From Ignavibacteria bacterium (lineage in GTDB: Bacteria > Bacteroidota > Ignavibacteria > Tepidaquicellales > Tepidaquicellaceae), in assembly GCA_036262055.1 (NCBI GenBank), contig DATAJP010000001.1, positions 248,001 to 312,000 on the forward strand: a DNA stretch of 64,000 nt, given 5' to 3'. The translations under genes were made by a program, and so were the position numbers. This document shows, in pieces, positions 17,772 to 17,915 of the stretch (positions within the stretch are counted from its first letter, which is position 1; each line of letters begins with the position of its first letter). Under the pieces are notes generated by a model. It was not told the DNA's origin, did no database searches, and saw only the letters and a list, made by a program, of their open reading frames with translations.

Positions 17772-17915
17772 TTAACAGCATTTTCCTTCTTTTGAATCGC
17801 ATTTACAATTCTCTGAATTGCAGTTGCAGTTTTCGCAGTTGCAATTTTCACAGTTGCAGCAGCAGCAACAATTGTTGCCGTCACAACATGATTTTTTTTC
17901 GTTTTTGGTTTCCAT
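17772..17915 (-). CDS. Metallothionein-like cysteine-rich peptide (47 aa, 16 Cys) in the ars operon
   Basis: A short gene with ATG at 17915–17913 and TAA at 17774–17772. The product begins METKNEKKSCC. It has a run of five cysteines at 16–20 and two CENCNC units (22–27 and 27–32 region), and it ends KCC. Cysteines are at 10, 11, 16–20, 22, 25, 27, 30, 32, 37, 39, 46 and 47, 34% of residues. There is no aromatic residue and no signal peptide. It lies 19 bases after the arsR stop and 15 before the arsC start on the same strand. I infer that it binds arsenite or thiophilic metals as a metallothionein-like sink. I do not recognise a named family. Confidence 0.85.
   Translation of the reverse strand: METKNEKKSCCDGNNCCCCCNCENCNCENCNCNSENCKCDSKEGKCC

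Follow-up and report, generated by a model that had tools for sequence, protein, structure and literature searches.

What could a very small, cysteine-rich protein be doing between a repressor and a reductase of arsenic resistance? The question is raised by a minus-strand operon of an Ignavibacteria bacterium, found in a stretch of 64,000 nucleotides that was analysed as a whole (the window), where the order of genes is arsR, peptide gene, arsC:

17935..18273, minus strand: arsR, encoding an ArsR/SmtB repressor of 112 aa, above the cut-offs of PF01022 and NF033788
17772..17915, minus strand: peptide gene, encoding a proposed arsenite chelator of 47 aa with 16 Cys; ATG start
17334..17756, minus strand: arsC, encoding a thioredoxin-type arsenate reductase of LMW-PTP fold, 140 aa, with Cys9/83/91; TTG start

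The initial annotation had placed a 47-residue peptide with 16 cysteines at this position and strand, 19 and 15 bases from its neighbours, and had described a run of five cysteines together with CxxCxC repeats. All of this is borne out. The ORF at 17772-17915 is present, and the intergenic gaps measure 19 nt on the arsR side and 15 nt on the arsC side. In the product, METKNEKKSCCDGNNCCCCCNCENCNCENCNCNSENCKCDSKEGKCC, five consecutive cysteines (Cys5) occupy residues 16-20, alongside two perfect CENCNC units and additional CxC and CC motifs. Only nine residue types are used (M, E, T, K, N, S, C, D and G), and after Met1 there are no aromatic, histidine, proline or aliphatic residues. With 34% Cys, arranged as CC, CxC and CxxC, and with F, W, Y and H absent, the peptide fits a broad compositional definition of metallothioneins (small size, Cys near 30% and placed in CC/CxC/CxxC, no aromatics); judged from its sequence, its composition is metallothionein-like.

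Can such a composition have come about by chance? Among window ORFs of 250 aa or longer, Cys accounts for 0.55% of codons. When the window was regenerated 20 times by a first-order Markov model, no ORF of 25-60 aa contained more than 7 Cys. Against these values, 16 Cys make chance an unreasonable explanation. Nor is the gene a simple DNA repeat, since its Cys codons are mixed (TGC 10, TGT 6) and its ENC units are spelled with different synonymous codons (GAA-AAT-TGC, GAA-AAC-TGC and GAG-AAT-TGT). The protein pattern is thus kept while the DNA varies, as is expected if selection acts on the protein, the evidence here coming from within the gene only.

The flanking genes place the peptide in an arsenic context. 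The ArsR has Cys at positions 41, 43, 80, 82, 111 and 112, and so carries the pattern of the ArArsR type: Cys41, Cys80 and Cys82, together with Cys43 and a C-terminal CC pair. In ArArsR of Arsenicibacter rosenii, the Cys residues are at 41, 43, 80, 82, 107 and 108, with Cys41-Cys80-Cys82 forming the As(III) site that is required for the As(III) response; the arsR-arsM-arsC operon of this organism is co-transcribed, with an induction by As(III) of 158- to 351-fold (PMC11868830). Upstream of arsR, the block ATCGTATTTTTACGATATAC is shared with the closest family relatives, L004 and L005, and a candidate operator is recognisable:

18283..18305, minus strand: putative ArsR operator ATCGTATTTTTACGATATACGAT, a conserved block in L004/L005 that resembles the ArArsR footprint

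The putative operator block is identical in L004 and has one base changed in L005. Its core is similar to TTTTATCGTAATATTGCGATCACAATC, the sequence protected by ArArsR (PMC11868830), and it overlaps a promoter-like site at 18324-18296 (TTGACA/TATTTT, a consensus match only). The ArArsR Cys pattern and an operator block kept in relatives give us good grounds to infer that the peptide gene is under As(III) control. As for the reductase, ArsC scores 64 bits against PF01451 and 112.7 bits (E=1e-32) against TIGR02691, the latter below the curated cut-off of 174.3; it has a CIHNSARS P-loop with Cys9, followed by Cys83 and Cys91, which are the redox cysteines of an enzyme of the LMW-PTP type.

In both L004 and L005, it is arsM that lies between arsR and arsC, the ArsM of L004 scoring 336.9 bits against a cut-off of 263 for the arsenite methyltransferase NF008823. 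The ArsR is 65% identical to that of L004 and 63% to that of L005, with the Cys pattern common to both, and the ArsC is 69% and 64% identical, respectively. These loci (L004/L033 and L005/L034) resemble ours in having related arsR and arsC genes in the same order behind the same promoter and operator block, but they retain arsM and have no poly-Cys ORF. The comparison with arsRMC of A. rosenii SM-1 runs along the same lines: the type of ArsR and the order arsR-X-arsC are shared, the operator core is similar, and there is no pump in the three-gene operon, but X is arsM there and the 47-aa poly-Cys peptide here (PMC11868830). We read the operon as being of the arsRMC type, with the peptide in the place of arsM. 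The slot itself holds no arsM, and ArsM is absent from the genome, where the best match is a generic methyltransferase at 1.6e-4. As arsM holds the slot in the closest relatives, replacement of methylation is the natural frame in which to view the peptide. Elsewhere in the family, arsC is often accompanied by arsM, a thioredoxin-like gene, ArsP_1 or Acr3.

Because the ends of ArsM are Cys-rich (an N-terminal SCCSSSCC, and in other genera a CCDPKEGCC-like tail), we considered whether the peptide could derive from a collapsed arsM. In shuffle tests of the peptide against ArsM, the values were 0.08 (N-terminus), 0.06 (tail of other genera), 0.38 (whole peptide) and 0.96 (DNA level). Such tails occur in ArsM of several sister genera (L007, L011, L012, L017, L019 and others) and in neither of the two closest relatives. 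Given the shuffle values and the lack of a CC tail in the closest relatives, an origin as an arsM remnant is not supported.

If arsenite is not methylated, by what route might it leave the cell? The absence of an arsenite pump nearby, reported in the initial annotation, holds and extends genome-wide to SBF/Acr3, ArsB and ArsP_1, the three pump families searched, in a genome (2.87 Mb, 4 contigs) that is 95.3% complete, so that about 5% may be missing. The method works, as the SBF search matches 23 of the 29 family genomes. In a further likeness to our locus, SBF and ArsP_1 are also absent from the two closest relatives; the pump-less state therefore appears to predate the replacement of arsM by the peptide. 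A single MIP (aquaporin) gene with two NPA motifs is present on another contig (G000:C3:264229-264759, L164), with no ars neighbours, and is a possible exit channel for As(III). In this MIP, the residue that follows the second NPA motif is Val (NPAVALGP) rather than the Arg of most aquaporins, which may give the channel an unusual selectivity. Within the window, two adjacent ABC exporter half-transporters are encoded at 20345-23914 on the minus strand, 2-6 kb from arsR; any role for them in arsenic handling is only conjectural.

Does the peptide have relatives? None was found among 391 genomes of the class or 395 of the phylum, and there was no match in the PDB or among plasmids. Weak matches within the class and phylum (E 0.006-1) had no such small poly-Cys ORF at the matched place, and beside arsC in the 72 genomes of the class that have a close ArsC, no further poly-Cys ORF of this type was seen. 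The genus is represented by a single genome in the searched set. Profile searches returned no family from Pfam (E up to 10) or from NCBIfam (E up to 1), in both cases with HMMER filters that drop most weak matches. The peptide likewise does not match the family profile of prokaryotic metallothioneins (SmtA/BmtA), and we therefore assign it to no named family. The open-access literature that we searched describes no comparable peptide from an ars operon. With no relative found, the peptide is an orphan without evidence of conservation across species. Homologues beside ars genes in related genomes, for which the initial annotation had proposed to search, were not found; formally this goes against its proposal, and the case for sequestration is consequently built on one genome and on context.

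The analysis establishes that the gene exists, where it lies, what type of regulator it has, and that arsM, SBF, ArsB and ArsP_1 are absent. The explanation that we favour, with a probability of roughly 0.6, is that the peptide is a cytoplasmic, metallothionein-like and As(III)-inducible arsenite chelator, with sequestration standing in for methylation. As(III) that enters the cell, or that arises via ArsC, would release ArsR from its operator and give rise to an arsR-peptide-arsC transcript; ArsC would reduce arsenate to As(III), which would then be wrapped by the thiols of the peptide. As(III) is coordinated by three thiols, and by this presumed stoichiometry a single peptide might hold up to five As. 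With no pump at hand, the pool of peptide would act as the sink, to be diluted as cells grow or to be turned over. We infer that the gene is transcribed, that its product binds As in such proportions, and that it has a protective role.

Several lines of evidence point towards an arsenite chelator: the composition of the peptide, tight packing, the ArArsR-type ArsR, the kept operator, the arsM slot, the absence of arsM and pumps, and the precedent that metallothioneins bind As(III) in vitro, the first-reported stoichiometry for human metallothionein being As6 (PMC5454826). Counting against it are the lack of any relative, the single genome for the genus, the outlet offered by the MIP, MFS and ABC exporters that are still candidates, and the difficulty that has been met in isolating As-metallothionein in vivo (PMC5454826). 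The sequestration suggested in the initial annotation thus stands in part. It fits the composition, the As(III)-sensing type of ArsR and the genome-wide absence of arsM and three pump families, but it has no homologue behind it, and the arsM slot had been overlooked.

Must such a chelator be dedicated to arsenic? Composition alone selects no metal, and the peptide might instead serve other soft metals (Sb, Cu, Cd, Hg, Zn), as a metallothionein or as a thiol buffer of general use, and be under the control of ArsR only incidentally, particularly as other ArsR/SmtB members control metallothioneins (SmtB-smtA, BxmR; PMC12193353). However, the ArsR carries the ArArsR As(III) site and the gene sits between arsR and arsC, and we consider this explanation unlikely. 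Bacterial metallothioneins such as SmtA/BmtA and MymT are, like the peptide, very small and Cys-rich, and SmtA is under an ArsR/SmtB repressor; the peptide differs in having no Pfam match, no His or aromatics, 16 Cys, and an ars rather than a Zn/Cd/Cu context.

A different line of thought is that the product is unused, and that translation of a poly-Cys leader peptide sets arsC expression through ribosome stalling or translational coupling. Two hairpins are predicted at the ends of arsC:

17736..17766, minus strand: 12-bp A/U hairpin over the arsC TTG start, z = -2.05
17289..17317, minus strand: 13-bp A/U hairpin downstream of arsC, a possible operon end, z = -3.3

The first is missing or weaker in L004 and L005, and is possibly opened by ribosomes finishing the peptide, which would amount to translational coupling; the second received no intrinsic-terminator score in a terminator scan. 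The hairpin over the arsC start, the Cys5 run, a stop 15 nt before arsC and strong folding of the ORF RNA (z = -4.3) are all features that a leader could show. There is also a precedent, in that polycysteine ORFs in mycobacteria are, reportedly, cysteine-responsive attenuators (Canestrari 2020). Yet there is no same-strand terminator between the peptide gene and arsC, an Rfam search gave no match, and the predicted pairing is largely explicable by self-complementary UGCA runs in TGC-rich DNA. Moreover, Cys codons occur throughout the ORF, with 27 codons after Cys5, where an attenuator needs only a few, and stalling in mid-ORF would keep the arsC hairpin closed. A leader function thus strikes us as quite improbable.

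We are similarly sceptical of a metallochaperone-like role, in which the peptide would carry As(III) to a channel or exporter encoded elsewhere, for instance the MIP or the ABC exporters. Candidate outlets are present, given that the MIPs AqpS and GlpF conduct arsenite (PMC4435449) and that the ABC pair is only a few kb distant, but the MIP is unlinked to any ars gene, other genes separate the ABC pair from arsR, and an ArsB-type partner was not found in the genome.

The peptide adjoins an ArsC with a Cys9/83/91 thiol cascade, and might serve as its dithiol electron donor or recycling partner; we give this very little credence, for the peptide has no recognisable redox fold, its 16 Cys far exceed the need, and many relatives of this ArsC have a separate thioredoxin-like gene instead. 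That the ORF is non-functional or a recently formed orphan, as the lack of a homologue in any searched collection would allow, is highly improbable in view of far more Cys than chance would give, of repeat units that differ synonymously, and of tight operon packing.

Other small Cys-rich ORFs were seen at ars loci. In L127 (G016, same order), a 69-aa member of NF041374, scoring 100.7 bits where the cut-off is 40 bits, is encoded between arsC and an arsR of the ArArsR type. This GDCCVxC (seleno)protein resembles our peptide in being a small Cys-rich protein at an ars locus, but it is a conserved named domain of other sequence, with no similarity to the peptide. A 75-aa ORF similar to the L127 protein is found upstream of arsC genes in L147. 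In a Spartobacteria MAG (L041:6064-6222), a 52-aa ORF, whose start resembles a signal peptide and whose end is Cys-rich (CKKSGKNCPMNDNKECNCGKSCDCK), follows arsC by about 630 nt, with acr3 upstream; it has no family match.

What appears to be new, as read from a single genome, is a metallothionein-like peptide inside an ars operon and in the slot of arsM. Genes such as this may be hidden by the length cut-offs of gene finders, and the peptide itself, being compact and natural, might be put to use as an arsenic-binding tag. Tentatively, and at slightly worse than even odds, we would go further and propose that arsenite methylation has given way to a bacterial metallothionein dedicated to arsenic, and that, without the usual pumps, arsenate reduction feeds a protein sink. 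Arsenic detoxification in bacteria has been described as efflux or transformation, with intracellular chelation of As(III) credited to eukaryotes (PMC11868830). If our reading is true, a peptide in the arsM slot of a bacterium without the usual pumps would be a bacterial counterpart of eukaryotic As(III) chelation.
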